Shown here: in pieces, positions 25,776 to 53,530 of the stretch
Numbering within the stretch: the stretch's first letter is position 1
Layout: every line of letters begins with the position of its first letter
Assembly (NCBI GenBank): GCA_003554865.1
Contig: PWHJ01000029.1
Location: 1 to 53,643 of the forward strand
DNA: 53,643 nt
Reading direction: 5' to 3'
Source of the DNA: Bacteroidota bacterium
GTDB taxonomy: Bacteria; Bacteroidota; Bacteroidia; Bacteroidales; PUMT01
Position numbers and translations under genes: made by a program
Notes under the pieces: generated by a model
The model's database searches: none
The model's input: only the letters and a program-made list of their open reading frames with translations
What the model was told of the DNA's origin: nothing

Positions 25776-25879
25776 TGAACAAACATGGGGGTTCATTCAG
25801 AAAAAAGAAATGAATTTAATTGACATATTGTGTTAAATTGCTGAATAGTAGTTTAATTAACCTAATTTGTACGAATAAA
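25743..25879 (+). repeat. Repeat copy A, upstream of miaA
   Basis: About 135 bp and close to 85-90% identical by eye to copy B (50399-50536). The left half (25743-25793) is bounded by an inverted repeat AACCCCCAT / ATGGGGGTT and encodes the last ten residues and stop of the acyl-CoA reductase. The right half (25792-25879), beginning TTCATTCAGAAAAAAG and ending TTTGTACG, is shared by all three copies. It ends 20 bp before the miaA start. No convincing TAnnTTTG box is conserved among copies, so promoter function is not proven. Confidence 0.85.
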
Positions 25880-25899
25880 CCTTTAAATTCCTAATCAAT

Positions 25900-26826
25900 A
25901 TGTCTGGCAAAGAAAAAGGTGTTCTGATTGTTATTGGCGGACCGACAGGCTCGGGTAAAACAGGGGTTGCCATTAATATGGCCAGACAACTCAATACCGT
26001 TATCATCTCGGCAGATTCAAGACAAATCTACCGGGAGCTTAAGATCGGTACCGCCGCACCCACGCAGAATGAGGAAAAACAAGCAAAACACTATTTGACC
26101 GGGAACAAATCGATCCACGATTACTATAACGCAAGCATATTCGAAAAAGAGGCTCTTTCACTGCTGGAGGAATTGTTCCGGCGGCACCGGGTGGTTTTGG
26201 CTGCAGGGGGGTCGGGGCTCTACATTGATGCCCTTTGCAGGGGAATAGATGAAATGCCTGATATAGACCCGCAATTGCGTGAAAATCTCATAAAAGAGTA
26301 CCGGGAAAAAGGGATCGAACCCCTCCAAAATAAATTAAAAAAAGTTGACCCTGATCATTACAGAAAGGCAGATTTAAACAACCCGAAAAGACTGCTAAGG
26401 GCAATTGAGGTGTCTGTGATGACAGGCACACCTTATTCGCAACATCTGACCGGCCAGTGTAAAAAAAGGGATTTCAAAATAGTAAAAACTGCAATAACTC
26501 TTCCCCGTGAAGAGCTTTACAGCCGTATAAACCAACGCACAGACAGAATGATAGAAAAAGGACTTGTTGATGAAGCCCGCAAATATTACCGGTTCAGACA
26601 CCTCAATGCGCTCAACACGGTAGGATACAAAGAACTTTTCTCCTATTTCGACGGTGATATTGATTTTCAGGAAGCGGTAAGGCTGATCAAAAGGAACACG
26701 AGACGATATGCAAGAAGACAGATAACATGGTTTAAAAAAGACAATGATATTAAATGGTTCAGCGCGGATGATGACGGCGCAATATTATCTTATATTGAGT
26801 CTGTTGCAAAAAATCATAACGGTTAA
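25900..26826 (+). CDS. miaA: tRNA dimethylallyltransferase MiaA
   Basis: 308 residues, full length. The P-loop GPTGSGKT is at residues 14-21, SADSRQIYRELKIGTAAP at about 38-55 is the conserved dimethylallyl/tRNA site, and LNTVGYKELFSYF near the C-terminus is diagnostic. It transfers the dimethylallyl group of DMAPP to A37 of tRNAs reading UNN codons; MiaB may then add methylthio. It ends 8 bp from the convergent GT4 gene. The start lies 20 bp after the end of repeat copy A, so its leader is largely made of that repeat. Bacteroidota often carry a second MiaA, which I cannot check here. Confidence 0.97.
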   Translation: MSGKEKGVLIVIGGPTGSGKTGVAINMARQLNTVIISADSRQIYRELKIGTAAPTQNEEKQAKHYLTGNKSIHDYYNASIFEKEALSLLEELFRRHRVVLAAGGSGLYIDALCRGIDEMPDIDPQLRENLIKEYREKGIEPLQNKLKKVDPDHYRKADLNNPKRLLRAIEVSVMTGTPYSQHLTGQCKKRDFKIVKTAITLPREELYSRINQRTDRMIEKGLVDEARKYYRFRHLNALNTVGYKELFSYFDGDIDFQEAVRLIKRNTRRYARRQITWFKKDNDIKWFSADDDGAILSYIESVAKNHNG

Positions 26827-26834
26827 AAATAAAA

Positions 26835-27980
26835 TCATTCCTTCCCTTCAATTTGACATGTCAGTGACTCAATTCCCTCAACCATGGCATCCCATGTAAA
26901 CCTTTTCCTTTCAATTTCTACATTTTCGGTAAATTCCTTTTCACGCTCGTTGATATAAAAATCATAAATGGCATCCGCTATTTCAACCGGTGAAGGATTT
27001 GTAACATATCCCACACGGCCGTCAGGAACCATCCCGGGTAATCCGCCGACACCGGTCACCAGCATCGGGCGGGCAAAATGATAAGCAATCTGGGTAACAC
27101 CGCTTTGTGTTGCCGACCGGTACGGCTGCACTACCATATCGGCCGAGCAGAAATAATATTTTACCTTCTCTTTTGGAACAAAGCCTTCGGTAAAGCCTAC
27201 CTTCCCTTTAAGATTCAAATCTCTTACCATTTGCTTGTAATAATCCGGATCTTCATAAAACTCGCCTGCAACGATCAGATTCACGTTCATATCTTTGAGC
27301 CTTTCATCTGACAAAGCTTTCAGCAGAAGATCAAGCCCCTTGTATTTTCTTACTATACCGAAAAAAAGAATATACCGTTTTGCGGGGTCAAGTTTCAGAA
27401 AACTGCATGCATCCTTTTTATCCACTGCCTTACCGAATGTATCATAGACCGGATGGGGTACACATACCGAAGGGCGGTTTATGCCCAGATTTTCAATATC
27501 CTGTTTAACACTTTCAGACATTACAACAAACCCGTCGCATCCCTTTAAAAAATAGCGGGTGAAGCGTTTTGCCAAGGGAAATCTGTCATGGGGGTCAACA
27601 TTGTGCACCAGACCTATTATCTTAACATTGAACCTTTTTTTTAAACGTCTTAGTATAAAACCATAGGCGGGAGCAAAAAAGGGAAGCCAGTAATGTACGA
27701 TCAAACAACAAGGATGCAATTTTGCTGCATAAGCGGCTGTTTTAAACCAGGAAAAAGGATTTAGAGGATTTATTATCCTTTTGATATTGATATCGCCCGG
27801 GGGAGCTCCTTTTTCAAACTGGGTTTTTCCCGGAAAAAGCAATGAGGGATACTGAAGTGTGAAACTTACAATTTCACTGCTGTGTCCTGATGAGGACAAG
27901 CTTCTGCAAAGAGCTTCATTAAAATTCGCTATACCCCCCCTGAAGGGGTAAGCCGGACCAATTAGCAAATATCGCAACAT
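26835..27980 (-). CDS. Glycosyltransferase family 4 (group 1)
   Basis: 381 residues with the GT-B fold. The start (YLLIGPAYPFRGGIANFNEAL) is the acceptor-side Gly-rich loop, the middle has YILFFGIVRKYKGLDLLLKAL, and the C-terminal nucleotide-sugar site is QSGVTQIAYHFARPMLVTGVGG with YVTNPS later. It probably transfers a sugar in cell-surface glycan synthesis; donor and acceptor cannot be read from sequence. It is the last gene of a three-gene operon: its ATG directly abuts the stop of the GT2 gene. Confidence 0.92.
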   Translation of the reverse strand: MLRYLLIGPAYPFRGGIANFNEALCRSLSSSGHSSEIVSFTLQYPSLLFPGKTQFEKGAPPGDINIKRIINPLNPFSWFKTAAYAAKLHPCCLIVHYWLPFFAPAYGFILRRLKKRFNVKIIGLVHNVDPHDRFPLAKRFTRYFLKGCDGFVVMSESVKQDIENLGINRPSVCVPHPVYDTFGKAVDKKDACSFLKLDPAKRYILFFGIVRKYKGLDLLLKALSDERLKDMNVNLIVAGEFYEDPDYYKQMVRDLNLKGKVGFTEGFVPKEKVKYYFCSADMVVQPYRSATQSGVTQIAYHFARPMLVTGVGGLPGMVPDGRVGYVTNPSPVEIADAIYDFYINEREKEFTENVEIERKRFTWDAMVEGIESLTCQIEGKE

Positions 27981-28934
27981 TTACACGTTAATCTTTTCTT
28001 CAATGAGGTATCTGTCCTTATAAGGAGAGTTACGTGATATAAGCTCACCCAGAAAGCCCGCCACAAAAAGCTGGGTGCCCATTACCATGGCAGCAAGGGC
28101 AATATAAAAATAGGGGCTTTCTGTTACAAGTCCCAGTCTTATACCATGATAGAGATAATAAATCTTTTGACCTCCCAGCCAGGCCGCCATCAAAAAACCA
28201 AGTATAAACATCAGGGTGCCCATAGTGCCGAAAAGGTGCATAGGCCGCTTTCCGAAGCGAAGTACAAAGGTGAGAGAGATAAGGTCAAGAAAACCTTTCA
28301 TAAAGCGTCCTAAACCGAACTTGGTGGAACCGTATTTCCTCTGCCTGTGGGGAACGACCTTTTCGGCTATGGCTGAAAAACCGGCCTTTTTAACCATCAC
28401 AGGCAGATAACGGTGCATCTCACCGTAAACCTCTATACTTTTAACCACCTCACTTCTGTATGCTTTCAGCCCGCAATTGAAATCGTGCAAGGGAATGCCG
28501 GTTGCAATACGCGCAGTCTTGTTGAAAATGCGGCTTGGAATTGTTTTGCTGAGAGGATCATAGCGGCGCTTTTTCCACCCCGAAACCATATCGTACTTCT
28601 CCCCGGTTATCATACGGTAAAGCTCAGGTATCTCTTCCGGACTGTCCTGCAAATCGGCATCCAATGTGATAACTACATCTCCTGATGCAACCTCGAAACC
28701 ACAATAAAGAGCGGCCGACTTGCCGTAATTCCTCCTGAATTTTATTGCTTTGATTGTGTCATACCTGGCAGAAAGCTCCTGTATAACCTTCCATGAACGG
28801 TCATCACTCCCGTCGTCAATCACAATTATCTCATATGACAGATCATGACTCTCCATTACACTGTTTATCCAGTCAATCAGCTCCGGAACAGACTGCTCTT
28901 CATTATACAGGGGAACAACTATTGATATATCCAT
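27981..28934 (-). CDS. Glycosyltransferase family 2, polyprenyl-phosphate sugar transferase type
   Basis: 317 residues. The GT-A domain (1-225) has SIVVPLYNEE, VIDDGSDD and TLDADLQDSPEEI, the signature of DPM1/GtrB/ArnC-like enzymes. Two transmembrane helices follow (about 236-258 and 270-292). This group makes polyprenyl-phosphate-linked sugars on the cytoplasmic side of the inner membrane. It is 11 bp downstream of the DUF4199 gene and adjoins the GT4 gene without a gap. The exact sugar is not predictable. Confidence 0.92.
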   Translation of the reverse strand: MDISIVVPLYNEEQSVPELIDWINSVMESHDLSYEIIVIDDGSDDRSWKVIQELSARYDTIKAIKFRRNYGKSAALYCGFEVASGDVVITLDADLQDSPEEIPELYRMITGEKYDMVSGWKKRRYDPLSKTIPSRIFNKTARIATGIPLHDFNCGLKAYRSEVVKSIEVYGEMHRYLPVMVKKAGFSAIAEKVVPHRQRKYGSTKFGLGRFMKGFLDLISLTFVLRFGKRPMHLFGTMGTLMFILGFLMAAWLGGQKIYYLYHGIRLGLVTESPYFYIALAAMVMGTQLFVAGFLGELISRNSPYKDRYLIEEKINV

Positions 28935-28945
28935 TGTAATGACTT

Positions 28946-29470
28946 TTAAGCTTGAAGTATTTTAGTTTTTTTCAAAAAGATCGAAGTTATAAGTGAAAAA
29001 AGAAATCCCATAAACACCGTATTAAATAATTGGCCAATAGCTATAACAAAAGGAGTCAGCACCCTTTCCTGCAACTGCATTGCCGTATCAATTTGTTCTT
29101 CCGTGAAGCCACCCTCATAAAGGCGCCTTGAAACCTCGGCAAGGGATTTATCCACCAGGCCGGGATCAATAAACTTGTGCAAAACATAAATAAAAACAGA
29201 CAAAACTATGGATGCAAAAAGGCTTACAAGAAGTCCCGTGGCAAGAGACTTGCCGTATGTGATAAAACCGCCAAGCTCATTATCACGAAAAGCCTTGGTT
29301 GCCAAAACAATACCGGCAATCAAAATCAGATAGCCAATGTAACCTGTAATATTTTCAATGGTCAGGCCCAGCATCCACATAATTGTTTGATAGATGACAA
29401 AAACAAGGCCCAGCGTTACACCATAATTGAAGGTACTCTTAAGAATGGAGACTTCTCTTTGTTCTTCCAT
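28946..29470 (-). CDS. DUF4199 membrane protein
   Basis: 174 residues, four hydrophobic helices (about 12-33, 40-58, 73-95, 140-163) with a helical periplasmic loop between the third and fourth. The pattern and the FRDNELGGFITYGKSLATGLL segment fit DUF4199, a family almost confined to Bacteroidota. It has no known activity. It is often found directly upstream of a GT2 gene in this phylum, as here, which suggests a role in membrane-linked sugar handling; that is inference from neighbourhood. Confidence 0.88.
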   Translation of the reverse strand: MEEQREVSILKSTFNYGVTLGLVFVIYQTIMWMLGLTIENITGYIGYLILIAGIVLATKAFRDNELGGFITYGKSLATGLLVSLFASIVLSVFIYVLHKFIDPGLVDKSLAEVSRRLYEGGFTEEQIDTAMQLQERVLTPFVIAIGQLFNTVFMGFLFSLITSIFLKKTKILQA

Positions 29471-29596
29471 ATTTTTTAAATTTAGTATGATTTATTGCCA
29501 CCGTCACAAGTCTGATCAATAAACCTGAAAAAACAGCAGGGAAACATGTACAATAAAAAAACAAATATATCGGTTTTTCAAAAATAAAGATATAAA

Positions 29597-29628
29597 ATTG
29601 GAAAATGGCTTCTTAGTTATTACTTTTG
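29597..29628 (+). promoter_or_regulatory. Promoter of SRP RNA gene
   Basis: ATTG (29597-29600), a 20-nt spacer and TACTTTTG (29621-29628) match the Bacteroidota -33/-7 pattern. The RNA's first paired base is 29633, five bases after the -7 box, as expected. Confidence 0.8.
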
Positions 29629-29632
29629 CATT

Positions 29633-29733
29633 GTGGGCAAGTCTTATACGGCCAGCTCCCGTCGAACTCCCCCAGGTCCGGAAGGAAGCAAGGGTAGACG
29701 GTTGTAGCGGTGCGATATAAGGAGCTTGCCCAC
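29633..29733 (+). ncRNA. ffs: Signal recognition particle RNA, small bacterial type (4.5S)
   Basis: About 101 nt. The apical Ffh-binding domain is recognised by CAGGTCCGGAAGGAAGCA, the universally conserved GGAA-loop hairpin with its asymmetric internal loop. The ends close with GTGGGCAAG pairing with CTTGCCCAC (29725-29733), followed by a seven-T terminator tract. With Ffh it targets nascent membrane and exported proteins to FtsY. It is a free-standing gene with its own promoter at 29597-29628. Confidence 0.96.
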
Positions 29734-29823
29734 TTTTTTTGTCTTAACACCTTGCCTCGCGGAGACTTAAAAACTACCACCCAGTTATAAAAGGATAATT
29801 AACCCTGATCTGTTTATATCTGT

Positions 29824-29855
29824 TTTATTTTTTTAAAAAGAGATTGTTAAATTTG
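29824..29855 (+). promoter_or_regulatory. Candidate promoter of the transaldolase-like gene
   Basis: TTTA (29824-29827), 20-nt spacer, TAAATTTG (29848-29855). The -7 box is perfect, the -33 box matches three of four positions. Confidence 0.5.
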
Positions 29856-29903
29856 TAAAGATCAAAATAAGCAGTTTATCTAACCACTAAAACTCTTGAA
29901 TAA

Positions 29904-30560
29904 ATGAAGTTCTTTATTGATACCGCCAACATAGATCAGATCAAAACAGCCCAAAGCCTGGGCATTATTGACGGAGTTACAACCAACCCTTCCCTTATGG
30001 CCAAAGAAGGTATCAAAGGGGAAAAAAATATTTCAGATCACTACTTAAAGATTTGCAATAGTGTGAAAGGTGATGTCAGCGCCGAGGTTATCTCAACCGA
30101 TTTTGAAGGGATGATCGGCGAAGCCGAGAAACTTGCCTCACTGCATTCGCAGATCGTGGTAAAGATACCTGTTATAAGGGAAGGTATAAAGGCGATCAGG
30201 TACCTCTCATCAAAAGGAATAAGAACAAACTGTACGCTGGTTTTTAACCCGGGTCAGGCACTTCTGGCTGCAAAAGCAGGTGCATCGTATGTCTCGCCCT
30301 TTATAGGCCGTCTTGACGACATAGGCGAAAACGGAATAGAGCTGATTGAAAAGCTGGTTGACATATTCAACTACTACGGTTTCGGGACCGAAGTTCTTGC
30401 CGCCTCCATCAGGAATACCAATCATATATTAAGGTGCATGGAAGCCGGGGCCGATGTTGCGACTTGTCCGCTCGAGCCGATTCTGGGACTGCTCAGGCAT
30501 CCCCTGACCGAGAGCGGACTTGAAAAATTCCTTGCCGATCATAAAAAACTAAACGATTGA
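29904..30560 (+). CDS. tal: Transaldolase / fructose-6-phosphate aldolase (TalC/Fsa subfamily)
   Basis: 218 residues, the short transaldolase form. FIDTANIDQIKTA at the start and GVTTNPSLMAKEG at 24-36 are diagnostic; the Schiff-base lysine is Lys87 in VVKIPV. TNCTLVFNPGQALLAAKAGA and SPFIGRLDDIG follow. Enzymes of this size are annotated either as transaldolase or as fructose-6-phosphate aldolase; Glu61 in AEVIST favours transaldolase. It would work in the non-oxidative pentose phosphate pathway with rpe, which is also in this window but unlinked. It may share a transcript with the YciO-like gene 46 bp downstream. Confidence 0.92.
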   Translation: MKFFIDTANIDQIKTAQSLGIIDGVTTNPSLMAKEGIKGEKNISDHYLKICNSVKGDVSAEVISTDFEGMIGEAEKLASLHSQIVVKIPVIREGIKAIRYLSSKGIRTNCTLVFNPGQALLAAKAGASYVSPFIGRLDDIGENGIELIEKLVDIFNYYGFGTEVLAASIRNTNHILRCMEAGADVATCPLEPILGLLRHPLTESGLEKFLADHKKLND

Positions 30561-30606
30561 TCAGCAGGTCAAAGCAAGCAATTTTTAACCAGTTAAAAAC
30601 AGGCCT

Positions 30607-31224
30607 ATGCTTTTAAAGATCTATCCGGAAAACCCCAATATGAGGCACGTTTTGAAAGTAGCGGATATACTTAAAAACGGGGGGATAATTATTTACCCGA
30701 CCGATACTGTATACGGGATGGGATGCGATATTTCAAATACCAAAGCCGTGGAAAAGATAGCCCGTCTTAAGGGTATAAAACTTAAAGATGCTGATTTCTC
30801 ATTCATCTGTAACGATTTCAGCACTCTTTCAAATTACACGCAACATTTCAGCAACGCCACCTTCAAGCTTCTGAAAAAAAACCTGCCGGGTCCTTTTACA
30901 TTCATACTGCCTGCTTCAAGCAACGTGCCCAAAATACTTCACAGGAAAAAGAAAACGGTTGGTGTACGCATCCCCGACAACCCGATAATTCTAAAAATTG
31001 CTGAAACCCTGGGCAGGCCGATTCTGAACACCTCCATTTATGATGAAGACGAAGTTGTGGAATACACAACCGATCCGGAGCTGATACATGAAAATTTCGA
31101 AAAAAAGGTTGACGCGGTCATAAACGGCGGATATGGCGGCAACATCCCATCAACCGTGGTGGATTGCACCGAAAACGAAGAGCCTGTAATAATCCGTGAA
31201 GGCAAAGGGGTGCTTGAATTATAG
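30607..31224 (+). CDS. YciO-type member of the TsaC/Sua5/YrdC family
   Basis: 205 residues with the YrdC fold: GGIIIYPTDTVYGMGCD opens the domain, then FSFICNDFSTLSNYTQ, PGPFTFILPAS and GVRIPDNPI. The spacing and the FSFICNDFSTLS segment resemble E. coli YciO rather than TsaC. TsaC makes threonylcarbamoyl-AMP for the t6A37 tRNA modification; YciO has the fold, but its ability to support t6A synthesis is doubtful. Another family member should exist elsewhere if this one is not functional in t6A. It ends 4 bp from the convergent trkH stop. Confidence 0.87.
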   Translation: MLLKIYPENPNMRHVLKVADILKNGGIIIYPTDTVYGMGCDISNTKAVEKIARLKGIKLKDADFSFICNDFSTLSNYTQHFSNATFKLLKKNLPGPFTFILPASSNVPKILHRKKKTVGVRIPDNPIILKIAETLGRPILNTSIYDEDEVVEYTTDPELIHENFEKKVDAVINGGYGGNIPSTVVDCTENEEPVIIREGKGVLEL

Positions 31225-31228
31225 AATT

Positions 31229-32677
31229 CTACTTTCTCCAAAAGGAGGGTGAAAAGAGTACAAGCACGGTAAACAGCTCCAGGCGCCCAAGCATCATAAG
31301 GAACGAGAGGTACCATTTTCCGGATACCGGTATGTGTGAATAATTTTCTACCGGTCCCACATCCCCTATCCCCGGACCGACATTGCCCAGAGTTGCAGCC
31401 ACAGCTCCAAAAGATGTGTCAAGGTTGTAACCCATCGATGCTATAACGCCTACACTGATTAGAAGTATTACGATGTAAAAAAACACGAATGCCATCACAT
31501 TGTTTATAATATGGGACGGTACAACCTGGTTGTTGTAACGCACCTGTACGACGGCACTGGGGTATATAAGCCTTTTCAGCTCCAGGTAGCTGTTCCTGAA
31601 TATAAGCAGTACCCTTATCATTTTAACCCCGGCGGCGGTAGAACCGGCACTCCCGCCAAAAAACATAAGAATAAAAATAATAATTGAAAAAAGCGGAAAC
31701 CACTGAAGATAGTCGGAGGTAACATAACCGGTTGTTGTAACAATAGATACCACCTGAAAAGCAGCTTTTCTAAATGAATCCTCAACTGAAACTTCACCCA
31801 GTATTATAAAGCCTGCCGTTATTATCACCGTAAAAAAAACTATAACGGTAAAATAAAACCTGAATTCATCGTTTTCCCATGCTTTTTTAAACTTTCCATG
31901 CAAGGCAAAATAAGAGAGAGTAAAATTTGTGCCTGCTGCAATCATGAAAAAAATGATGACATATTGAATGTATGCCGAGTCGAAATGTGCAATGCTGGCC
32001 TGTTTTGTTGAAAATCCGCCGGTTGCCATTGTGGTAAACGCATGGTTAACCGCATCAAAAAGATCTACTCCCCCAACCATCATAAGTATTATCTGGGCAA
32101 GTGAGAATATAATATAGATACCCCAGAGTCTTTTGGCTGTTTCCTTAACGCGTGGATGGATCTTCTCTTTGGTGGGACCGGGCACTTCGGCCACAAAAAG
32201 CTGCATGCCGCCTACACCAAGTATAGGCAAAATGGCCAGTGAAAGAACAATTATGCCCAGTCCGCCGATCCACTGTGTAAGGCTCCGCCAGAAAAGCAAT
32301 CCGTGCGGGAGTGATTCAATATCTTCAATTATGGTTGCCCCGGTTGTTGTAAAACCTGACATTGTCTCAAAAAATGCATCGGTTACCGAGGAGAAGGTGC
32401 CGCTTAAAACAAAAGGCATAGAGCCAAATATTGAAAACATCACCCAAACCAGTCCAACGATTATAAAACCCTCCCTTTTCCCGATAAAAGTGTCTTCTCT
32501 GCGGGTGGGCAACCATGCACTGCCTCCTACAACAAGTATGGCGATAAAGGTCAGCAAAAAAGCCTGAAAATCCTCTCCTCCATAGGCCAGGGAAACAATA
32601 ATGCACAAGCCTATGAAAAAGCCTTCTATCAGCAAAAGCAGGCCGAGGATATTGATTATTTTTTTCCAGTTAACCAT
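31229..32677 (-). CDS. trkH: Trk-type potassium uptake membrane subunit TrkH
   Basis: 482 residues, multi-spanning, with the four pore-loop repeats of the Trk/Ktr/HKT family: ETMSGFTTTGATII, FTTMATGGFST, SIVTTTGYVTSDY and ATLGNVGPGIG. Each carries the Gly that lines the selectivity filter. It imports K+ together with the cytoplasmic gating subunit TrkA. trkA is upstream on the same strand, 271 bp away, so they may be one transcription unit with an inverted repeat between them. Confidence 0.96.
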   Translation of the reverse strand: MVNWKKIINILGLLLLIEGFFIGLCIIVSLAYGGEDFQAFLLTFIAILVVGGSAWLPTRREDTFIGKREGFIIVGLVWVMFSIFGSMPFVLSGTFSSVTDAFFETMSGFTTTGATIIEDIESLPHGLLFWRSLTQWIGGLGIIVLSLAILPILGVGGMQLFVAEVPGPTKEKIHPRVKETAKRLWGIYIIFSLAQIILMMVGGVDLFDAVNHAFTTMATGGFSTKQASIAHFDSAYIQYVIIFFMIAAGTNFTLSYFALHGKFKKAWENDEFRFYFTVIVFFTVIITAGFIILGEVSVEDSFRKAAFQVVSIVTTTGYVTSDYLQWFPLFSIIIFILMFFGGSAGSTAAGVKMIRVLLIFRNSYLELKRLIYPSAVVQVRYNNQVVPSHIINNVMAFVFFYIVILLISVGVIASMGYNLDTSFGAVAATLGNVGPGIGDVGPVENYSHIPVSGKWYLSFLMMLGRLELFTVLVLFSPSFWRK

Positions 32678-32703
32678 GAAAAAATAAAATTGCCGGAGCT
32701 TAC

Positions 32704-32749
32704 GGCAGGGAAAAACTGCAATCCCCGGCCAAGGGTTATCCCTGCCTCT
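32704..32749. repeat. Inverted repeat between trkA and trkH
   Basis: GGCAGGGA (32705-32712) pairs with TCCCTGCC (32741-32748) across about 28 nt, in a GC-rich island of an otherwise AT-rich spacer. A further GCCTGCCGG follows. It could be an attenuator or stability hairpin in the trkA-trkH transcript, or a dispersed intergenic repeat. Confidence 0.5.
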
Positions 32750-32948
32750 GCCTGCCGGTCATTTTACAATCAAAAACAAGAAGGCAAGGTTATGATATTT
32801 TATTTATATTTCAAAACCAAAAACTTTAAATCGGGATATGTTTTACGGATTCTGTTCATACGGGCCTGGCTGCCAAAGACTCAAAGTATAACTCCCGGTT
32901 ATTGAGATTATCAGTCCTTTTACCATCACAGCGCAATAATGAGGGGGT

Positions 32949-36622: not shown

Positions 36623-36688
36623 AGGGAGTTATTTAAATTAATAGATAAAAATCCTGACCCTTACAGTAAAGTTATAAAAAAAAAATTA

Positions 36689-41585: not shown

Positions 41586-43313
41586 CTATCCTGTGTTCAT
41601 TGAAATGAGAAACTCCTCATTGGACTTTGTCTTCATCATTCGATCCCTGAGAAACTCCATTGCTTCTATAGGAGTCATATCCGCCAGGTAATTGCGAAGG
41701 ATCCATACCTTGTTCATCACATCCTCTTCAAGAAGAAGCTCTTCACGTCTTGTACTGGAAACGTTGACATCTACAGAGGGGAATATCCGCTTGTTGGACA
41801 ACTTCCTGTCAAGCTGCAGCTCCATGTTTCCGGTTCCTTTAAATTCTTCAAATATAACGTCATCCATTTTGGAGCCGGTCTCAGTGAGAGCTGTGGCAAG
41901 AATGGTAAGGGAGCCTCCTTTCTCTATATTGCGTGCAGCGCCAAAAAAGCGTTTCGGCTTTTGCAGTGCGTTGGCATCCACCCCACCCGAAAGAACTTTT
42001 CCGGATGCGGGAGATACGGTATTGAAAGCTCTTGCCAGCCTTGTTATCGAATCAAGGAGAATAAAAACATCATGCCCGCATTCAACCATCCGCTTGGCCT
42101 TCTCTATAACCATGTTTGCAACCCTTACATGCCTTTCAGCCGGCTCATCAAAAGTGGAGGATATAACCTCAGCTTTTACATTTCTTGCCATATCGGTCAC
42201 CTCTTCGGGGCGCTCATCAATTAGCAACACCATCATATAAACTTCAGGATGATTGACTGCAACGGCATTGGCAACCTCTTTGAGTAAAACTGTTTTACCG
42301 GTTTTAGGCTGTGCAACAATCAGGCCCCTCTGACCTTTTCCGATTGGTGTAAACATATCGACCACTCTCACCGAAAGGCTGTCGCTTGCAGGGCTGACCA
42401 GCCTGAACTTTTCATCAGGGAAAAGCGGAGTAAGATAGTCGAAAGGTACGCGGTCACGAATAAATTCAGGATTGCGGCCGTTTATCTGCTCAACTTTGAT
42501 AAGAGGGAAGTACTTCTCCCCTTCCTTCGGAGGCCTGATATTTCCTTCAACGTTATCACCTGTCTTTAAGCCAAAAAGCTTTATTTGTGACTGGGAAACA
42601 TATATATCATCGGGCGAGTTAAGATAGTTGTAATCCGAAGAGCGCAAAAAACCGTAACCATCGGGCATTATCTCAAGGACCCCCGAAGCGTAAATAATAC
42701 CGTCAAAGTCAAACTCGCGCATACCGTTTCTTCGATCCTGCGGCCTTCTTGATGATGTATCCTTATCGGCAGTCTTCTCCTGGGCCTTATCAGTTGCCTT
42801 CTCTTTCTGCTTATCAGCAGTTTTTTCTCTCTGTTTATCAGTTGCCTTCTCTTTCTGTTTATCAGCTGGCTTCTCCTGAGACTTGTCGGTTGCCCGATCT
42901 GGTTCCTGACTCTCCTGTTTTTTTTGGTTTTCAGAGATTTCTTTGGTTTTTTGTTGTTTAGGGCGCTCCTTAGTCTCTTCTGCCTTTTCAGAAACTTCAA
43001 CAGTTTCTTCCTTCTTTTTTGCCTGAGCCTGCTCCGTTTTCCCCTTTGCCTCCTCGCGGGATTTTCTGTTGCTTTCTTTGTCAACCGGCTGTTCCTGCTC
43101 TTTTCTGGAAGATGGTCTGCCCGGACTCCGGGTGGATTGCTTTGTTTTCTGATTTTGATTTTCTTTCCCGGAGGATATAATAGCCTGCTGGTCCAGGATC
43201 TTGTATATCAAATCCTGTTTTTTTAATGAATCAACTCGCTTAATGTTAAGATTTTTAGCAATTTCTCTCAACTCGGAAACAAGCTTCTTGTTCAGTTCAA
43301 GAATGTCGTACAT
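41586..43313 (-). CDS. rho: Transcription termination factor Rho with large disordered insert
   Basis: 575 residues, about 155 longer than E. coli Rho. Residues 1-45 are the Rho N-terminal helix domain ([19 protein letters not shown]). Residues about 46-205 are low-complexity, rich in Lys, Glu and Gln, with tandem units such as [16 protein letters not shown] and DKAQEKTA. The RNA-binding cold-shock domain ([14 protein letters not shown]) follows, then the ATPase with P-loop QPKTGKT near 330 and [12 protein letters not shown]. It is a hexameric RNA translocase that ends transcription. A comparable insert in Bacteroides thetaiotaomicron Rho drives phase separation, which is established for that species; here it is inference. 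Confidence 0.97.
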
Positions 43314-46603: not shown

Positions 46604-46797
46604 AAAATAACAGTTTAATGAATACGCTGAAAATGTAAGCATGACATAAGCCTGACGCCTTGTCGTATATTTCGCAGTTATGGCAGATTTTTTAATGGCC
46701 TGATCATTTGCTTGTTTACAAAAATAAAGTTTTTGTGTAAAATTTTCAGCCATTTTTAACGTTAAATCTTTGGCATTGACTTTGCACCTGTAAAAAT

Positions 46798-47193
46798 GGG
46801 GCTGACTGGTTTTGACAGCAAGGTGAACGGATATGTAAGCATGCCGAGCTAAGCATTTTTATCTCGTAAAACTGAAATGCAAAAAATTAAGAGGCGAAAA
46901 CAACTTCGCGCTTGCAGCATAACCTTCAGTAAGGTATGCTAATCCCAGGGTCAAGGAACCCGGGGCAAGCTGTCTCTCAAAAACCCCGCTCAACGGTTTT
47001 TGGTAAAGAGGCATTCGAAAAGTTGAGCTGCACGGGGAACAGTCCCGGTTTCCCCGTTAAGACCAAAGGGACTCGGGTTGCAGGTTGGTTGTCTGTTGCC
47101 GCCCTGCTTCCGACAACAAACAACAGACTAAGCATGTAGAAAGCATATTGGTTCCTTGTTTGGACGAGGGTTCGAATCCCTCCAGCTCCACCA
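46798..47193 (+). ncRNA. ssrA: Transfer-messenger RNA (tmRNA)
   Basis: 396 nt, one-piece form. The tRNA-like domain is closed by GGGGCTG at the 5' end and CAGCTCC-A-CCA at the 3' end, with the CCA encoded and a T-loop GGTTCGAATCC. The mRNA-like part encodes the tag GENNFALAA, from GGC at 46893 to the TAA at 46920-46922. It rescues stalled ribosomes with SmpB and marks the peptide for proteolysis; the ALAA end is the protease signal. A hairpin terminator follows within 5 nt. Confidence 0.97.
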
Positions 47194-47197
47194 CATC

Positions 47198-47221
47198 ACC
47201 CGGCCCTTAGCCGGGTTTTTC
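47198..47221 (+). terminator. Intrinsic terminator of ssrA
   Basis: ACCCGGC pairs with GCCGGGT around a five-base loop, followed by TTTTTC. Confidence 0.88.
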
Positions 47222-47255
47222 ATGATAAAAAGTCATTACACAACTATCGCAATCC

Positions 47256-47930
47256 TTAAAGGGCAATAATTAGAACAATCATAACACTCATGGGGATAGT
47301 AAGATTATCCAGGCCTTTCCAGCTAATCATTTCAACAATGGCCCCCACAACAGCTACCAGCAAAGCAAGCCAGAAAACCTTGGGCTCAAAGCTCATAAAC
47401 CTGAAGTAGAGAGCAATAATGCTGATAATAAAACATGAAATAAGAAAAGAGATTGAGCCCAGCCAGGTTTTCTGCAGCTTCCTTTTAAATATGCGTATTT
47501 TATGATTGTATTGCTGAAGGTTGAGTCCGAGAACACCTGCCACAGGATCACATATAGCCAGAACCATCATGGGCAAAATGAAAAGCAGCCTGTCATCAAG
47601 CAAATTGGATATTAAAAAAGTCAGGTATATTGAAAGCGGCAAAAGGTAGCTTCCGGCAGAAATTCTGTCTATGTCATGAATTGATTTCAGGTATGTTGAA
47701 TTGCGGCTTACAAGCAACAAAATAAAAAAAATGGCAGCCAGAGCCAGTACATACCAGTGATCTTCAAAAAGATACGGAAAGGTGACAGTTGACAAAGTTG
47801 CAGTAAAATGCGCAAACTTTCGTGTTATTTCACCTTTAAGGCCGAGCCTTCTGTAAACCATTTCATTAAAAGTGAGCAGCAAACTCAGTGCAATCAAAAA
47901 TAATATTGCTATACCTACCTGATTGTCCAT
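47256..47930 (-). CDS. Phytol/dolichol kinase-like CTP-dependent membrane protein
   Basis: 224 residues with about six or seven transmembrane helices. Motifs of the SEC59/VTE5 (phytol kinase, dolichol kinase) branch of the CdsA superfamily are visible: RKFAHF at 37-42, AICDPVAGVLG at about 127-137, KTWLGS and VEMISWKGLDNLTIP near the C-terminus. Such enzymes use CTP to phosphorylate a lipid alcohol or make a related lipid phosphate. The substrate here could be an isoprenoid alcohol or diacylglycerol. It is the last gene of the lipid-related run and lies 18 bp after the CdsA gene. Confidence 0.82.
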   Translation of the reverse strand: MDNQVGIAILFLIALSLLLTFNEMVYRRLGLKGEITRKFAHFTATLSTVTFPYLFEDHWYVLALAAIFFILLLVSRNSTYLKSIHDIDRISAGSYLLPLSIYLTFLISNLLDDRLLFILPMMVLAICDPVAGVLGLNLQQYNHKIRIFKRKLQKTWLGSISFLISCFIISIIALYFRFMSFEPKVFWLALLVAVVGAIVEMISWKGLDNLTIPMSVMIVLIIAL

Positions 47931-47948
47931 TTTAGCTGTTTTAGAATT

Positions 47949-48689
47949 TTAAAAAAGTATTTTTTCAAAATATCCACCTGAGAGCCAGGCTATAAAAGCT
48001 CCTCCCGCAACAAGACTGTCGAAACGGTCAAGAAACCCACCATGTCCGGGAAGAAGATTGCTGAAATCTTTTACATTATACTTCCTCTTGTATAATGAAG
48101 TGGCCATATCACCGGCAAACGCAAATATAACAATTCCGGCGGCCAGAATTAAAGTATTGAAAATCTGTGTTTCAATAAGTCCTCTAAGCAGCAAAGAACT
48201 TGCAACAGCAATCAAAGCACCGCCAATGAAACCCTCATATGTTTTCCCGGGACTTACTGCAGGAAAGATTTTTCTCCTGCCCATTAACTGTCCGCTTATC
48301 TGACTGAAAGCGTCAAAAATTGAAAGCACCAGAAAGGTGAAAAGCAAAATTCCCTTCTCCATCTGGCTAAACCGGTAAAACCCGGCAGAGAAAACCAAAA
48401 AAAGAAACAGAAATACAAAAAAGAAATATTTTCTCCTGAAATCCGAACGGCGGAACAAGAGAAAAATCTCTGCGAACCCGGTCAGTATGATTAATATTGC
48501 AAGGTAATGAAAAAAGGCAGTGTTAAAGATTATTGAAAAAAACAATACGTGTATAATAAAAAAATATGTAATGTACTTTACAAGGATCTCACGTGCCTGA
48601 TCACGGCTCTTTTTTCTGCCGATCAAATAAAAGCCGGCTCCTCCGAGTATGAAATATATCAGAATTATAATATAAATTGTAAGTATCAT
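47949..48689 (-). CDS. cdsA: Phosphatidate cytidylyltransferase (CdsA family)
   Basis: 246 residues with multiple membrane helices and an intact CdsA signature near the C-terminus: SLYKRKYNVKDF then LLPGHGGFLDRFDSL. PGKTYEGFIGG and FAGDMATS also match. It activates phosphatidic acid with CTP to CDP-diacylglycerol on the inner membrane, the substrate of the CDP-alcohol phosphatidyltransferase encoded 1 kb upstream in the same run. The protein is on the short side for CdsA because the N-terminal helices are reduced in number. Confidence 0.9.
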   Translation of the reverse strand: MILTIYIIILIYFILGGAGFYLIGRKKSRDQAREILVKYITYFFIIHVLFFSIIFNTAFFHYLAILIILTGFAEIFLLFRRSDFRRKYFFFVFLFLFLVFSAGFYRFSQMEKGILLFTFLVLSIFDAFSQISGQLMGRRKIFPAVSPGKTYEGFIGGALIAVASSLLLRGLIETQIFNTLILAAGIVIFAFAGDMATSLYKRKYNVKDFSNLLPGHGGFLDRFDSLVAGGAFIAWLSGGYFEKILF

Positions 48690-48728
48690 ATATGTGGCTT
48701 CAAATATAAGTTAAATCCGGTCACCTTC

Positions 48729-49529
48729 TCAGGTGAGGATCATTAATATTCCGAAAGCAAGTATCACATATGCAAATGAATCTCTGAGCGCCCCCTCTTT
48801 TTTGGCAAAATTTATTCTTCTTGTCAGCAACGGACCAAAAATTGCCCCCAGCAGGGAACCGGAAGTGAGAAACAAAACAAGTGTCATATTTATATTTCCA
48901 AGAAACAGGTGGCCTGTCAAAGCCGAAAGCGTATTTATAAACAATATCATCAAAGAGGTGCCGGCCACAAGCTTTATGGGCAGTTTAACGGCAAACAGTC
49001 CCGCTAGCACCGGTGCTGTTCCGCTGGTGCCAAAGGTCCCCGAAATCATTCCCCCCACAAAACCGTAAAACGAGCCTGCGGGCACCTTATTGAAAAGACG
49101 GAGAAAAAATGAGCTGCTTTTTTCCGCTTTAGCCTCTCTCTCTTTTTTCCGGTTGTTGTACATTATCAATAAAGCAAGCAGTATGGAATAAATGCCAAAG
49201 CCCGACCTGAGCTGCTCCGGATCAAGCAGTCCGGTTACCGAAGCGCCCGCTATGGCGCCCATAATACCTGCAATGGCAAAGATCAAGCCGGTATTTAAAT
49301 GCAAATTCCCGTGGCGGTAATGACCTAAAGCCCCGATAAAACATATCGGAAGAGTGGCCGCAAGAGAAGTTGAAACCGCCACATGGGCAGGGACCTGAAA
49401 AAAGAGCATGAGTGCGGGGGGGAAGAAAAAACCCCCGCCTCCACCAATCATTGTTGCCAGCAACCCTATCACAAAGCCGATTAAAGGCAACCAGAGGTAA
49501 CTGGACTCGAATGTGGAGTAAAATACCAT
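48729..49529 (-). CDS. TauE/SafE family membrane transporter
   Basis: 266 residues from the ATG at 49529, which lies 8 bp after the upstream stop; a start 19 codons earlier would overlap the preceding gene and adds a polar leader. The protein has about eight helices and the two family repeats: GLLATMIGGGGGFFFPPALML with STSLAATLP, and GMISGTFGTSGTAPVLAGL with GTSLMILFINTLS. Members export sulfite, sulfoacetate or other organic anions. There is no sulfur gene nearby, and its place between two lipid genes may be accidental. Confidence 0.9.
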   Translation of the reverse strand: MVFYSTFESSYLWLPLIGFVIGLLATMIGGGGGFFFPPALMLFFQVPAHVAVSTSLAATLPICFIGALGHYRHGNLHLNTGLIFAIAGIMGAIAGASVTGLLDPEQLRSGFGIYSILLALLIMYNNRKKEREAKAEKSSSFFLRLFNKVPAGSFYGFVGGMISGTFGTSGTAPVLAGLFAVKLPIKLVAGTSLMILFINTLSALTGHLFLGNINMTLVLFLTSGSLLGAIFGPLLTRRINFAKKEGALRDSFAYVILAFGILMILT

Positions 49530-49536
49530 ATTATAA

Positions 49537-50118
49537 TTATTTATCTCCGGAATCTTCTTTAAGCACCCAGTAAAGCCCCTTTGCATTTGTTCTCATCTCG
49601 GGTATTATAATTTGTATAATCAGGTGCTCCAGGGCTGAGAGAATCCCCCAGACAACCATAATATAATAAAAAGGAGTTATAAAGCCGTAGGTAAAAAGCA
49701 CAATGAAAAAAGCCCCCTGAATATAACCCCCTATCTTGGTCGAATACAAATGAAGACTGGGTGTTTTTTTGAATTTTATCAGTGAAAAAATCACGAATGA
49801 AAAGGTCATTCCTATAAACAATAAGAAGCTTTCAATATGGGGCATGAAATCATCCAGCTTAAATACAAAGATACCCGTGAAAGCCAGCAAATATGTCAGA
49901 TTATCGGCAAATGAGTCAAGCTTTGCCCCAAATTCAGTTTCAAGGCCGAATTTTCGGGCAATATAGCCGTCGGCAACATCTGAAAGCAGGTTAATTACAA
50001 TGAATATTGCAAAAAGGGTTTCCCAGCCCGACAATGCAAACCATAAAATAAAAGGAAAAGCTATCACCCTGTAAAATCCAAGCAGATTAGGAATTGTAAA
50101 TATCTCGCGCCTGTTCAT
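49537..50118 (-). CDS. CDP-alcohol phosphatidyltransferase
   Basis: 193 residues, about six helices. The catalytic motif D-x2-DG-x2-AR-x8-G-x3-D-x3-D is complete: Asp47, Asp50, Gly51, Ala54, Arg55, Gly64, Asp68 and Asp72. It replaces CMP in CDP-diacylglycerol with an alcohol acceptor such as glycerol-3-phosphate, serine or inositol phosphate; the acceptor cannot be told. It is the first gene of a four-gene minus-strand run that also contains cdsA, which would make its substrate. Confidence 0.92.
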   Translation of the reverse strand: MNRREIFTIPNLLGFYRVIAFPFILWFALSGWETLFAIFIVINLLSDVADGYIARKFGLETEFGAKLDSFADNLTYLLAFTGIFVFKLDDFMPHIESFLLFIGMTFSFVIFSLIKFKKTPSLHLYSTKIGGYIQGAFFIVLFTYGFITPFYYIMVVWGILSALEHLIIQIIIPEMRTNAKGLYWVLKEDSGDK

Positions 50119-50396
50119 ACATCCATCCGATATTTGGTTTCCTTATTGCGTAAAGTATGCTTTGTATGCATACCCTTGCCAGTTTTAAGCCTGTAAACTT
50201 AAAACATTTTTAATTATTAAACAAAGAAACCAAAAACTCCTCTTTGTAAAGCACACATATACAATTTTTTATATCAGGCAAATGAGGCAGGTATTAAAAA
50301 ATTAAAACACTTATTGACATTAAAAACCGTTAAAATTATGTATATATGATTTTAAAATATGTATATATTTGCGAAACATAAATACGATTTTTTCAA
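50119..50396. other. Divergent intergenic region before HMG-CoA reductase
   Basis: AT-rich spacer. Two exact 10-bp direct repeats ATGTATATAT (50338-50347 and 50359-50368) lie 21 bp apart, two helical turns, and the second overlaps a perfect -7 box TATATTTG (50364-50371). This could be the promoter and operator of the HMG-CoA reductase gene, giving a leader of about 155 nt that contains repeat copy B. No consensus -33 box is seen. Confidence 0.45.
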
Positions 50397-50477
50397 ATGA
50401 ACCCCCATCAGACTTTGGCAGACAAAACGATGATGAACAAGCATGGGGATTCATTCAGAAAAAAGAAATGTATTTAA
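50397..50477 (+). CDS. Possible 26-codon leader ORF inside repeat copy B
   Basis: ATG at 50397 opens a frame of 26 codons, beginning MNPHQTLADKT and ending FRKKKCI, that runs through the left half of repeat copy B and stops 55 bp before the HMG-CoA reductase start. Copy A carries the same peptide split over two frames by a one-base deletion. Coding is unproven; it may be a by-product of the repeat. Confidence 0.2.
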   Translation: MNPHQTLADKTMMNKHGDSFRKKKCI

Positions 50478-50536
50478 TTGACATTCTATAATAACTTATT
50501 GAATATTAGCTTAATAAACCTGATTTGTACGGATGA
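50399..50536 (+). repeat. Repeat copy B, upstream of HMG-CoA reductase
   Basis: Second full-length copy. Compared with copy A it has an extra G at about 50429, and its hairpin arm reads ATGGGGATT so the inverted repeat is one pair weaker. The right half (from TTCATTCAG at 50450) is almost identical to copy C, including TTGACATTCTATAATAAC and the end TTTGTACGGATGA. The ATG of HMG-CoA reductase lies within this terminal GGATGA. Confidence 0.85.
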
Positions 50537-51693
50537 AGCTGCCAAAAGACAGAAAAAACGATTACTCCAGAACTGCTATTGACAAACGGATTAAATTTTT
50601 AAGCAGTAATAACGGAATTGATATTAAATATTTGAAAGGCAATAAAGTTGATCCGGAAAATGCAAGGGGTAACATCGAAAATATAATTGGCTTTTCTCAA
50701 GTACCCGTAGGGGCGATCGGACCCCTCAAGGTCAACGGAGACCATGCAAAAGGCGATTTTTTTGTCCCCCTCAGCACATCCGAAGGTGCATTGATAGCCT
50801 CGTTTAACCGCGGATCAAGGATTATAACTCTTTCGGGTGGCGCAAACGTTCTTGTATTAAAGAACACCATACAAAGGGCCCCCTGCTTTGAACTGAAGAA
50901 TTTGTCCAAAGTACAGGAGTTTATCGAGTGGATTCAAAACAATTTCAATACTCTTAAGCAGGTTGCAGAAAGCACAACAAAAACCGGCAAGTTGACAGGC
51001 TATAGTACTTATATTCAGGGAAAAATAGTTTTTCTGCGGCTGGAGTTTTTTTCAGGCGATGCAATGGGTATGAATATGGTCTCAAAATCTTCCCAGGAGA
51101 TTTGTAATTACATTAAGGAGCACTTTCCAATTGAGGGATATTTACTTGAAAGCAATATGGCGGTCGATAAGAAGCCCTCCGGCATTAACAGTATTCTGGG
51201 AAGAGGGAAAAGTGTAACTGCTGAGGTTGTATTAAAAAAGGACCTTATCTCAAAATACCTTTACACAACCTCAGAGGCAATTGACAAGGCTTACAGGCAA
51301 CAGCTCATGGGCGGAGTGCTTGCGGGAACCCAGGGGGCCAACGGTCACTTTGCCAACGGTGTTGCAGCTCTGTTTCTGGCATGCGGACAGGATCTTGCCA
51401 ATATAAGTGAATCTAGTGTAGGCTACACTTATATGGAAGATTTAGGCGGTGATCTGTACGTATCTGTAAACTTGCCCTCCCTGGTAGTAGGAACTGTAGG
51501 GGGCGGAACCTCCCTTCCAACACAACGCGAATGCCTTGAAATTATGGGCTGTTACGGCAACGGGAAAGCCCTGAAATTCACGGAAATTGCTGCGGCGACC
51601 GTGCTGGCAGGAGAAATATCTCTGGCTTCCTCGGTTGTGGCAGGCGACTTTATTACCGCTCATGAAAAATACGGGCGCAACCGCCCGAAATAG
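50533..51693 (+). CDS. Hydroxymethylglutaryl-CoA reductase, class I-like
   Basis: 386 residues, a catalytic domain without membrane anchor. Class I motifs are present: NIIGFSQVPVGAIGPL, Glu84 in STSEGAL, GDAMGMNMVSKS at 175-186, Lys213/Lys214 in DKKPSGIN, Asp287 in GQD and His377 in TAHEKY. It reduces HMG-CoA to mevalonate with NAD(P)H, the committed step of the mevalonate route to IPP and DMAPP. The ATG is formed by the last bases of repeat copy B. It is a single-gene unit; other mevalonate genes are not in the window. A lipid-gene run is divergent from it. Confidence 0.95.
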   Translation: MKLPKDRKNDYSRTAIDKRIKFLSSNNGIDIKYLKGNKVDPENARGNIENIIGFSQVPVGAIGPLKVNGDHAKGDFFVPLSTSEGALIASFNRGSRIITLSGGANVLVLKNTIQRAPCFELKNLSKVQEFIEWIQNNFNTLKQVAESTTKTGKLTGYSTYIQGKIVFLRLEFFSGDAMGMNMVSKSSQEICNYIKEHFPIEGYLLESNMAVDKKPSGINSILGRGKSVTAEVVLKKDLISKYLYTTSEAIDKAYRQQLMGGVLAGTQGANGHFANGVAALFLACGQDLANISESSVGYTYMEDLGGDLYVSVNLPSLVVGTVGGGTSLPTQRECLEIMGCYGNGKALKFTEIAAATVLAGEISLASSVVAGDFITAHEKYGRNRPK

Positions 51694-51700
51694 CTTTTTT
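51672..51700 (+). terminator. Terminator overlapping the end of the HMG-CoA reductase gene
   Basis: CGGGCG (51672-51677) pairs with CGCCCG (51682-51687) over a CAAC loop, inside the last codons; a run of seven T follows after six bases at 51694-51700. Confidence 0.6.
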
Positions 51701-51800
51701 TAACTTCAGACTTCGGCAGAAATTTTTGCAACCATGAGGCTGCAATGAAAAGTGCTGTGTTATTGAGATAAAAACCTGTCTAAATTTTAGTAAATTTTTC

Positions 51801-52103
51801 TCAACCTTTTGTTTCTTCCTCCACTTTTTTAAATGTAAGCACCATATCGCCCAATACGATAATTAAAGCGATACTACCAAGAATGGCAGGTATAATATAC
51901 ACATTTTCATAAGCGACACCTTCAAACCAGTGTCCGAACACGGGAGATCCGAGCCATGCACCGATCCATCCGATTACAACTTTTGATATAAAAGAATCGG
52001 GACCGGTTCTTATGTAAAGCTTAAACCCAAAATGCAGTATGGCTGATACAACGATACTTATTACCAGCAATATCAGAAAACTGAGAAAATCCATTCCTAT
52101 CAT
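51801..52103 (-). CDS. GlsB/YeaQ/YmgE-type small membrane protein
   Basis: 100 residues with three helices (about 5-27, 38-58, 70-90). SKVVIGWIGAWLGSPVFG in the second and ILGSIALIIVLG in the third resemble the transglycosylase-associated (GlsB/YeaQ) family. These are small general-stress membrane proteins of unknown mechanism, not transglycosylases. The start has a strong Shine-Dalgarno (AGGAGGG) six bases before the ATG. It is downstream of the cysteine-desulfurase-like gene on the same strand but 154 bp away. Confidence 0.75.
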   Translation of the reverse strand: MIGMDFLSFLILLVISIVVSAILHFGFKLYIRTGPDSFISKVVIGWIGAWLGSPVFGHWFEGVAYENVYIIPAILGSIALIIVLGDMVLTFKKVEEETKG

Positions 52104-52257
52104 ACGCCCTCCTGTTTTTATGGTTTAAAACTAAATTAAAAAATAGTCAATAACACAGCACTTTTAAATATCAACAGGCACATATGCATAATCCTGCCAT
52201 CTTAAACAAAGATATTGTTTAATTCGTTACATACCAAACAAAAAGAGAGCTAATTAC

Positions 52258-53421
52258 TTACCCTTTGATTGAGGCTATCTCCTCTACGGCTTTTATTGCC
52301 GCCTCGATCTGCTCTTCTGTATTGAAAGGGCCGAGACCAAACCTCACTGTTCCCTGAATATCTTTTGTACCGAGTCTTTCATGAACCATCGGAGCACATT
52401 GCAGGCCTGTGCGGCAGGCAATATTGTAATCCACATCAAGCATCATGCCAACATCAGCCGACGACATACCGGTAATATTAAAGCTCAAAACGGGATTTTG
52501 ATTTTCGGTATTTTCCGCACAATAAACTTTAACCCTTTCAATATTCTGAAGTCCGTTCCTCAGTTTGTCCCACAACACCAATTCCTGATTGTGGATGTTT
52601 TCAATACCTTTTTCATTTATCCATTTTACCCCGGCATTTAAGCCGGCCACCCCGGCCATGTTAAGGGTGCCGCATTCAAGCCTGTAGGGAAATTCCTCAA
52701 GATGGGAAAGTTGTGCAGAGCGTACTCCCGTACCCCCAAACCTGGTGGGTTTTACAGGCACCCCCTCCATCACGTAGGATCCGCCAATTCCTGTGGGTCC
52801 CATAAGGGACTTGTGACCGGTAAACACGTAAACATCTATGCCCATTGCCTGCATATCAACATTTACGCAACCGGCTCCCTGAGCTCCGTCAACTATAAAC
52901 AGCACACCGGCATCCTTGCATATTTTACCTATCTCCTCCAGAGGCTGAACTGTACCTATAATATTGGAGCAGTGATTCACCACAACCATTTTGGTATTGG
53001 GCTGCAATGCTTTTTTTATATCACCGGGGTCAACGTAGCCTTTTTCATCGAACGGCACATGCGTGGTCTCCGCAATACCGTCTGTGCCGAGATGGTAAAG
53101 CGGACGAAGAACGGAGTTGTGCTCAAGCATGGTCGTTACAATATGATCTCCTTTACCGGCAAGACCCTGAATGTTCATATTCAAAGAATCGCTGGCATTG
53201 TAACTGAAAGTTAGCCTGTTTGGATCGCCGTCCCCGTTAAAAAGTTCCATCAGCATAGTGCGGGTTTCCATTACAAGCTCCTCTGCTTCTATTGAGGCGT
53301 CAAAACCTGAGCGCCCCGGACTTACCCCTTTACTGGTGCAGAATTCATATATGAAATCATACACCAGCGCAGGCTTTGGAAAGGTGGTGGCAGCATTGTC
53401 CAGGTAAATAAAATTTTCCAT
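52258..53421 (-). CDS. Cysteine desulfurase family PLP enzyme
   Basis: 387 residues, class V aminotransferase fold. The PLP lysine is Lys204 in TGHKSL, the cofactor pocket has EHNSVLRPL and VDGAQGAG, and a Cys-containing active-site segment CRTGLQC (Cys336, Cys342) lies near the C-terminus. The layout fits the NifS/CsdB-related subfamily often annotated simply as cysteine desulfurase family protein; it may mobilise sulfur or selenium from (seleno)cysteine. No iscU or suf gene is adjacent, so its role in Fe-S assembly is open. Its leader is made of repeat copy C. Confidence 0.9.
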   Translation of the reverse strand: MENFIYLDNAATTFPKPALVYDFIYEFCTSKGVSPGRSGFDASIEAEELVMETRTMLMELFNGDGDPNRLTFSYNASDSLNMNIQGLAGKGDHIVTTMLEHNSVLRPLYHLGTDGIAETTHVPFDEKGYVDPGDIKKALQPNTKMVVVNHCSNIIGTVQPLEEIGKICKDAGVLFIVDGAQGAGCVNVDMQAMGIDVYVFTGHKSLMGPTGIGGSYVMEGVPVKPTRFGGTGVRSAQLSHLEEFPYRLECGTLNMAGVAGLNAGVKWINEKGIENIHNQELVLWDKLRNGLQNIERVKVYCAENTENQNPVLSFNITGMSSADVGMMLDVDYNIACRTGLQCAPMVHERLGTKDIQGTVRFGLGPFNTEEQIEAAIKAVEEIASIKG

Positions 53422-53439
53422 AACCGGGTATTTTTTGGT

Positions 53440-53530
53440 TCATCCGTACAAACAAAGTTAATTAAACTAATTTTCAATAAGTTATTATAGAATGTCAATT
53501 AAATTCATTTCTTTTTTTCTGAATGGACCT
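53440..53530 (-). repeat. Repeat copy C, upstream of the cysteine-desulfurase-like gene
   Basis: Read on the minus strand it starts GGAGGTCCATTCAG and ends TTTGTACGGATGAA, about 20 bp before the ATG at 53421. It contains only the right half of the element; the left half present in copies A and B is replaced by sequence resembling the 3' end of a group II intron. Identity to copy B is about 90% by eye. Confidence 0.85.

Follow-up and report, generated by a model that had tools for sequence, protein, structure and literature searches.

A hairpin-bearing repeat found just 3′ of [A/G]TGAA in Bacteroidia: probably a family of small non-autonomous mobile elements

Why should three unlinked genes of one bacterium carry nearly the same sequence directly before their start codons? 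The question is raised by contig PWHJ01000029.1 of a Bacteroidota bacterium (assembly GCA_003554865.1, a 3.2 Mb draft genome in 243 contigs), analyzed here over its entire length of 53,643 nucleotides and referred to as the window (contig C102 in our numbering). Within it a copy of one repeat precedes miaA, the HMG-CoA reductase gene and an aminotransferase class-V gene. The original prediction, made from the window alone, described an element of about 90 bp, considered a shared cis-regulatory leader plausible, and named a small mobile element preferring such sites as the alternative. Comparison of the copies in this genome and in related ones favors the second view: the repeat probably represents a family of small non-autonomous mobile elements that are sited just 3′ of [A/G]TGAA (RTGAA) and carry an end N-ATGAA of their own.

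Extent and structure of the element

Pairwise comparison and a search of the source genome agree that all three copies belong to one repeat. Without gaps, identity amounts to 83% between the miaA and HMG-CoA reductase copies (25767–25882 vs. 50425–50540), 91% between the latter and the third copy (50459–50537 vs. 53439–53517) and 79% between the first and the third (25801–25891 vs. 53427–53517). Used as a query against its own genome, the miaA copy recovers 44 places including itself (some being two pieces of one copy), 41 of them at an expect value (E) ≤0.002 and the best other place at E 3.4e-26, which excludes chance similarity. The length first proposed was too short: an intact copy measures about 136 bp, the part omitted being a left hairpin of 57–58 nt (Table 1). 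The third copy is without this hairpin; the 3′ end of a group II intron occupies its place, and the contig stops at 53643.

Read from the left, [A/G]TGAA is followed by a hairpin (about 57 nt), then by the guide TTCATNC and the middle section, which differs from genus to genus, and finally by an A/T-rich right end, folded as single sequences only, that closes in N-ATGAA. Sizes range from about 85 to 140 bp and reach about 205 bp in those copies whose guide is separated from the left hairpin by another one of about 65 bp. In the left hairpin an outer stem (CCCCCAT/ATGGGGG, for example) encloses a mini-hairpin whose variants include GCCTTTGGC, GACTTCGTC and GTCACTGAGTGAC. None of the known RNA families matched the element, and scans of the window returned just a tmRNA, a signal recognition particle (SRP) RNA and the intron piece.

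The covariation check suggested by the original prediction shows strong compensatory change in the left hairpin. In alignment A1, comprising 37 of 39 selected hairpins, 37 cells were changed on both sides compared with 16.0 in shuffles, two of the five measures being matched by 38 and 68 of 500 shuffles; RNAalifold returned zero pairs on this alignment. In alignment A2, made of 17 chosen hairpins, among them sequences from three other families of the order and one (L046) with a wrong 3′ end, the covariation score was 0.477 against 0.170 ± 0.025 in shuffles and at most 0.117 in slid versions, and 9 of 13 pairs showed change on both sides, a number reached by 26 of 500 shuffles. The hairpin structure model was derived from the same sequences that scored it.

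A second covariation links the guide to the right end. The base following TTCAT and the base preceding the right-end ATGAA form Watson–Crick pairs in 26 of 44 rows, where 11.0 are expected and none of 20000 shuffles is as high; the rows were transcribed by hand, 24 from the 41 copies of the own genome and 20 from relatives, and related copies among them are not independent. The 17 own copies omitted lack a part or were unclear, and some of them would speak against the pairing (C23:102445 and C61:15772). Two neighboring units of an array in genome G455 each fit their own right end (CATCTG/CAGATG and CATGTG/CACATG). When right and left ends are joined, one stacked hairpin forms in all six elements folded, and when six elements were folded in linear form, four showed pairing between the guide and the right-end ATG.

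Two other ideas about the element were set aside. One was a chain of small overlapping open reading frames (ORFs) within it, noticed by eye and dismissed without formal test; the other was a shared promoter, judged without a promoter scan from right ends that are unlike in different genera (..TTTGTACGN vs. ..TATATACAT).

Table 1. Positions in the window of the three copies and their parts, followed by other features
Feature	Position	Strand	Remarks
Left hairpin, miaA copy	25740–25796	+	Match to hairpin model R1, E 5.5e-17; left target RTGAA decayed to CTAAA
Guide TTCATTC, miaA copy	25792–25798	+	
Middle and right end, miaA copy	25799–25879	+	Ends ..TTTGTACGA-ATAAA (25875–25879), decayed ATGAA
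Left target ATGAA (50397–50401) and left hairpin, HMG-CoA reductase copy	50397–50454	+	Match to hairpin model R1, E 1.8e-13
Guide TTCATTC, HMG-CoA reductase copy	50450–50456	+	
Middle and right end, HMG-CoA reductase copy	50457–50537	+	Final ATGAA 50533–50537, comprising the start codon of the gene and the next two bases
Guide, middle and right end, third copy (no left hairpin)	53439–53530	−	Right-end ATGAA 53443–53439
Group II intron 3′ end (domains V–VI)	53529–53643	−	3′ border approximate; located where the third copy should have its left hairpin
tmRNA gene	46798–47193		RNA-family scan of window
Bacteroidales small SRP RNA gene	29628–29735		RNA-family scan of window
24-bp tandem repeats	42763–42875		Within predicted gene

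Target site, start codons and spread

The left hairpin was used to follow the element through the lineage. It gives 93 matches in its own genome at E ≤0.1 and is present in all 16 genomes of the bacterial family at E ≤0.01, with 5 to 89 matches each. Seven of 295 genomes of the order match at E ≤1e-4, four of these within the family, and 15 of 395 sampled genomes of the class Bacteroidia at E ≤3e-4, the own genome included; class-level copies were read from seven of the 14 others (G311, G317, G393, G397, G557, G616 and G655 being left out). Plasmid, phage and viral-contig collections gave no match to the queries tried, and a search of open-licence PubMed Central papers yielded no description of such an element.

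Recent spread is seen in the relative G007, in which 36 matches to its own element were found, 20 of them at ≥96% identity; many copies are cut at contig ends, and halves of one insertion may be double-counted. These copies have 12 different left flanks with sharp borders, three of the flanks being the right end of another unit. Near-identical copies at unrelated sites favor the mobile element named as the alternative in the original prediction, the site preference being [A/G]TGAA. The element also forms head-to-tail arrays with one shared ATGAA per joint (L044; G336). The array in G336 (L341, G336:C59) lies downstream of a thiamine pyrophosphate (TPP) riboswitch, between thiS, identified by reading the sequence, and a ThiC-type gene (PF13667); Tandem Repeats Finder (TRF) counts 2.9 units in it, and four, one of them diverged, are counted by eye. 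At another locus (L053, G008:C70), 36-bp left-end units stand in tandem, ATGAA bounding each and the last closing at ATGAA.

The left flanks of the copies are ATGAA or GTGAA, and the right end is ATGAA unless decayed. Since three copies pair a left GTGAA with a right ATGAA (L095; C4:21151 and C19:372471 in G352), the ATGAA on the right probably belongs to the element itself; other copies with a left GTGAA have a right end that is decayed or unclear (G352 C7:286596; G567). The same three copies speak against a classical miniature inverted-repeat transposable element (MITE) that a DDE transposase would move and whose target-site duplication would be ATGAA. Most young copies do have ATGAA on both sides, as that explanation would have it, but terminal inverted repeats were not found by eye (left ATGAANCCCC, right end read backwards TTCATNCG), and of the explanations considered here we regard this one as the least probable.

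With such an end, an insertion at a start ATGAA would keep the former ATGAA as its left flank and place a start codon at the right border. In the window the start codon of HMG-CoA reductase (50533) coincides with the right-end ATG. That of miaA (25900) lies 20 nt beyond the decayed right end, and that of the aminotransferase class-V gene (53421) comes 22 nt after the right-end ATG of the third copy (53443). HMG-CoA reductase orthologs begin with ATGAA in at least 15 of the 21 listed, some records duplicating our numbered genomes; in the nearest relative, G001, the gene begins with ATGGA. Where genes starting at the right-end ATG were tested for domains, a Pfam domain begins at residues 1–4 in five of eight (Usp and AAA_15 at 1, FAA_hydrolase at 2, Response_reg and Epimerase at 4).

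The original prediction held that the copies always lie in sense just before a start codon, which fails genome-wide. Among the 62 best of the 93 own-genome matches (E ≤1.1e-6), an in-frame gene ATG stands at the expected right-end position in 18. Another 17 precede a sense ORF in some other way, 18 face a convergent ORF, and for nine the stretch examined ends before any ORF is reached; none of the 62 is within an ORF of ≥90 aa. Apart from the copies placed exactly at a start, orientation is unbiased, with 17 in sense and 18 convergent.

The preference for start codons was further quantified in G352, a near-complete genome (20 contigs, 100% complete), for 42 of its 44 matches, two partial ones being omitted. 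The right-end ATG opens an ORF of ≥60 aa in 24 of these 42 copies, about 14 being expected, and in 26 if the two upstream units of tandem pairs are included. Seven copies face convergent ORFs and one (C7:334268) lies within a likely ORF; three further copies flagged as inside genes involve two opposite-strand ORFs and one upstream extension of the same ORF. Unmasked ATGAA sites in the G352 loci number 559 within genes, 38 at starts and 78 intergenic, so that starts make up 33% of the tolerable sites. Measured on this background, taken from loci that surround elements and are not an independent sample, the start-codon excess has p 1e-3 for 24 copies and 1e-4 for 26.

Regulatory leader or mobile element

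A shared leader would be looked for at the same genes in related genomes. In ten relatives of the family, five HMG-CoA reductase, two aminotransferase and nine miaA loci were found and read, and the element is upstream in sense at none of these 16 orthologous loci. One miaA ortholog (G007, L297) carries it in the opposite orientation, and the hairpin model gives three further matches within orthologous loci, none at a gene-upstream sense position. Lack of conservation at orthologous genes, which the original prediction itself had named as an argument against regulation, is thus what the relatives display; together with the 18 of 62 own copies that face convergent ORFs, it leaves the reading as a conserved regulatory leader without support.

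One may still consider a true cis-regulatory RNA leader whose guide pairs with the start codon to control translation and which has spread because it is useful. Compensatory change in the hairpin, the pairing of the right-end ATG by the guide in four of six linear folds and the occurrence at start codons above tolerated-site expectation (p 1e-3 to 1e-4) are in line with this. It is nevertheless unlikely in view of the 16 orthologous loci without the element in sense, the convergent copies, the unbiased orientation outside the exact-start class and the mixed function of the genes tested. The mobile element, too, may have a side effect on translation, in view of the guide/ATG pairing in linear folds and the hairpin kept by compensatory change.

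Candidate enzymes, known systems and proposed movement

The layout resembles that of IS200/IS605 single-strand transposition; membership in IS200/IS605 or in REP/RAYT (repetitive extragenic palindrome/REP-associated tyrosine transposase) is not claimed. IS200/IS605 elements have a subterminal hairpin, a short fixed left target and guides, located 5′ of the hairpin, that pair with the cleavage sites, and neither terminal inverted repeats nor a target duplication (PMC6006769). Our element likewise has a subterminal left hairpin, a fixed short left target RTGAA and a short guide, and is without terminal inverted repeats and duplication. It is unlike them in that a single guide, 3′ of the hairpin, seems to serve both ends, the right end copies the target, start codons are favored, and no Y1 transposase gene was found beside any copy examined. 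REP/REPIN sequences share with it the chromosomal, multi-copy, intergenic hairpin, whereas the element is about 90–140 bp long, has RTGAA rather than a GTAG-type tag at the hairpin foot, occurs in head-to-tail arrays and is not beside the PF01797 genes examined. HEARO targets ATGA or GTGA. In contrast to HEARO, no encoded protein was seen in the element, and RF02033 (HEARO) matched none of nine loci at E ≤10 and none of eight at E ≤1; an association of this IscB-associated RNA with IS200/IS605 has been mentioned (PMC9755519). Direct repeats of TAACTGA are concentrated just upstream of start codons in Beggiatoaceae and some Bacteroidetes (PMC4679880); the element is also concentrated near start codons, but those are heptamers and ours is a hairpin with defined ends and a guide.

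Could the repeat be of REP type, moved by a host-encoded RAYT? It is a chromosomal hairpin repeat unmatched in plasmid and phage collections, and of 17 genomes from other families that carry the element, 16 have PF01797 genes (a figure with no background rate from element-free genomes). Such an enzyme is quite unlikely, as no full-length gene was found in the eight family genomes searched, no hairpin matches lie near 30 PF01797 genes elsewhere, none is at seven G352 loci, and nine RAYT-like loci that were read have other hairpins or none of the element type. At two loci (L232, G311:C56; L228, G352:C11), RAYT-like Y1 genes have small hairpins of their own repeated directly before and after them; at L232 a GGTGCAGAGCACC hairpin stands just ahead of two ATG codons and is perhaps a parallel start-codon-near repeat. 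C-terminal pieces of an IS200-type Y1 transposase were noticed in G007 (L099, G007:C77) and G012 (L084, G012:C5).

The group II intron beside the third copy raises another route, in which a reverse transcriptase, for instance that of the intron present in this genome, would copy the RNA of the element into RTGAA sites. The intron piece matches RF00029 at 53529–53603 (−) with E 2.3e-4 and 30.2 bits, under the gathering score of 40. Its 3′ end is 100% identical at six places of the genome (the window and C225, C40, C10, C174 and C159), all six followed, by eye, by element sequence; it also occurs in the family genomes G005, G007, G010 and G012, and in G007 other sequence follows it in five of nine matches. 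The intron thus appears to be a separate element able to use the hairpin as a site. An RNA-borne retroelement would fit the RNA-like structure, the identity of the element's 3′ end with the target and the coexistence of the intron within some copies; it is very unlikely, because G002, G003 and G006, with 37, 29 and 65 hairpin matches, yielded no 3′ end of the intron, and left-truncated copies are few away from contig ends.

For the mobile element that we prefer, movement would take place as a folded single strand, probably via a circle that brings the right end together with the left in one stacked hairpin. The guide would then pair both with the target and with the right end of the element itself, in the manner of IS200/IS605 guides, and cutting would be done by a candidate enzyme acting in trans. 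Their match to the target and their tolerance of insertion would make start codons frequent sites, hits inside genes being purged. Several observations weigh against this proposal. The guide lies on the other side of the hairpin from those of IS200/IS605. Pairing between guide and right end is not always kept, since recent G007 copies with one guide end in either GG-ATGAA or AC-ATGAA. The GTGAA cases could alternatively be explained by point mutations, and start codons are occupied only moderately more often than the share of tolerated sites predicts. As to the enzyme, a PF01797 search gave no match in six of eight family genomes and only fragments in two, no hairpin match at E ≤1 occurs in 30 PF01797 loci of other genomes, and the seven PF01797 loci of G352 are all without the element, the nearest pair being 3.1 kb apart; the absence of a Y1 gene from the family is weak evidence, because the drafts break at these repeats.

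More tentatively, and with somewhat less than even confidence, we suggest that the repeat stands for a new class of elements in Bacteroidia, for which the start codon is the effective target. One guide would pair with both RTGAA and the element's own right end in a single-strand form, and insertion would rebuild the start codon and leave a structured leader able to mask it. Most mobile elements harm the genes they hit. This one fits the start codon and brings a spare one along at its right end, and so it can accumulate, even to the point of a tandem array in front of thiC. If true, this would account for unannotated repeats before Bacteroidia genes and for a rapid turnover of their 5′ leaders.

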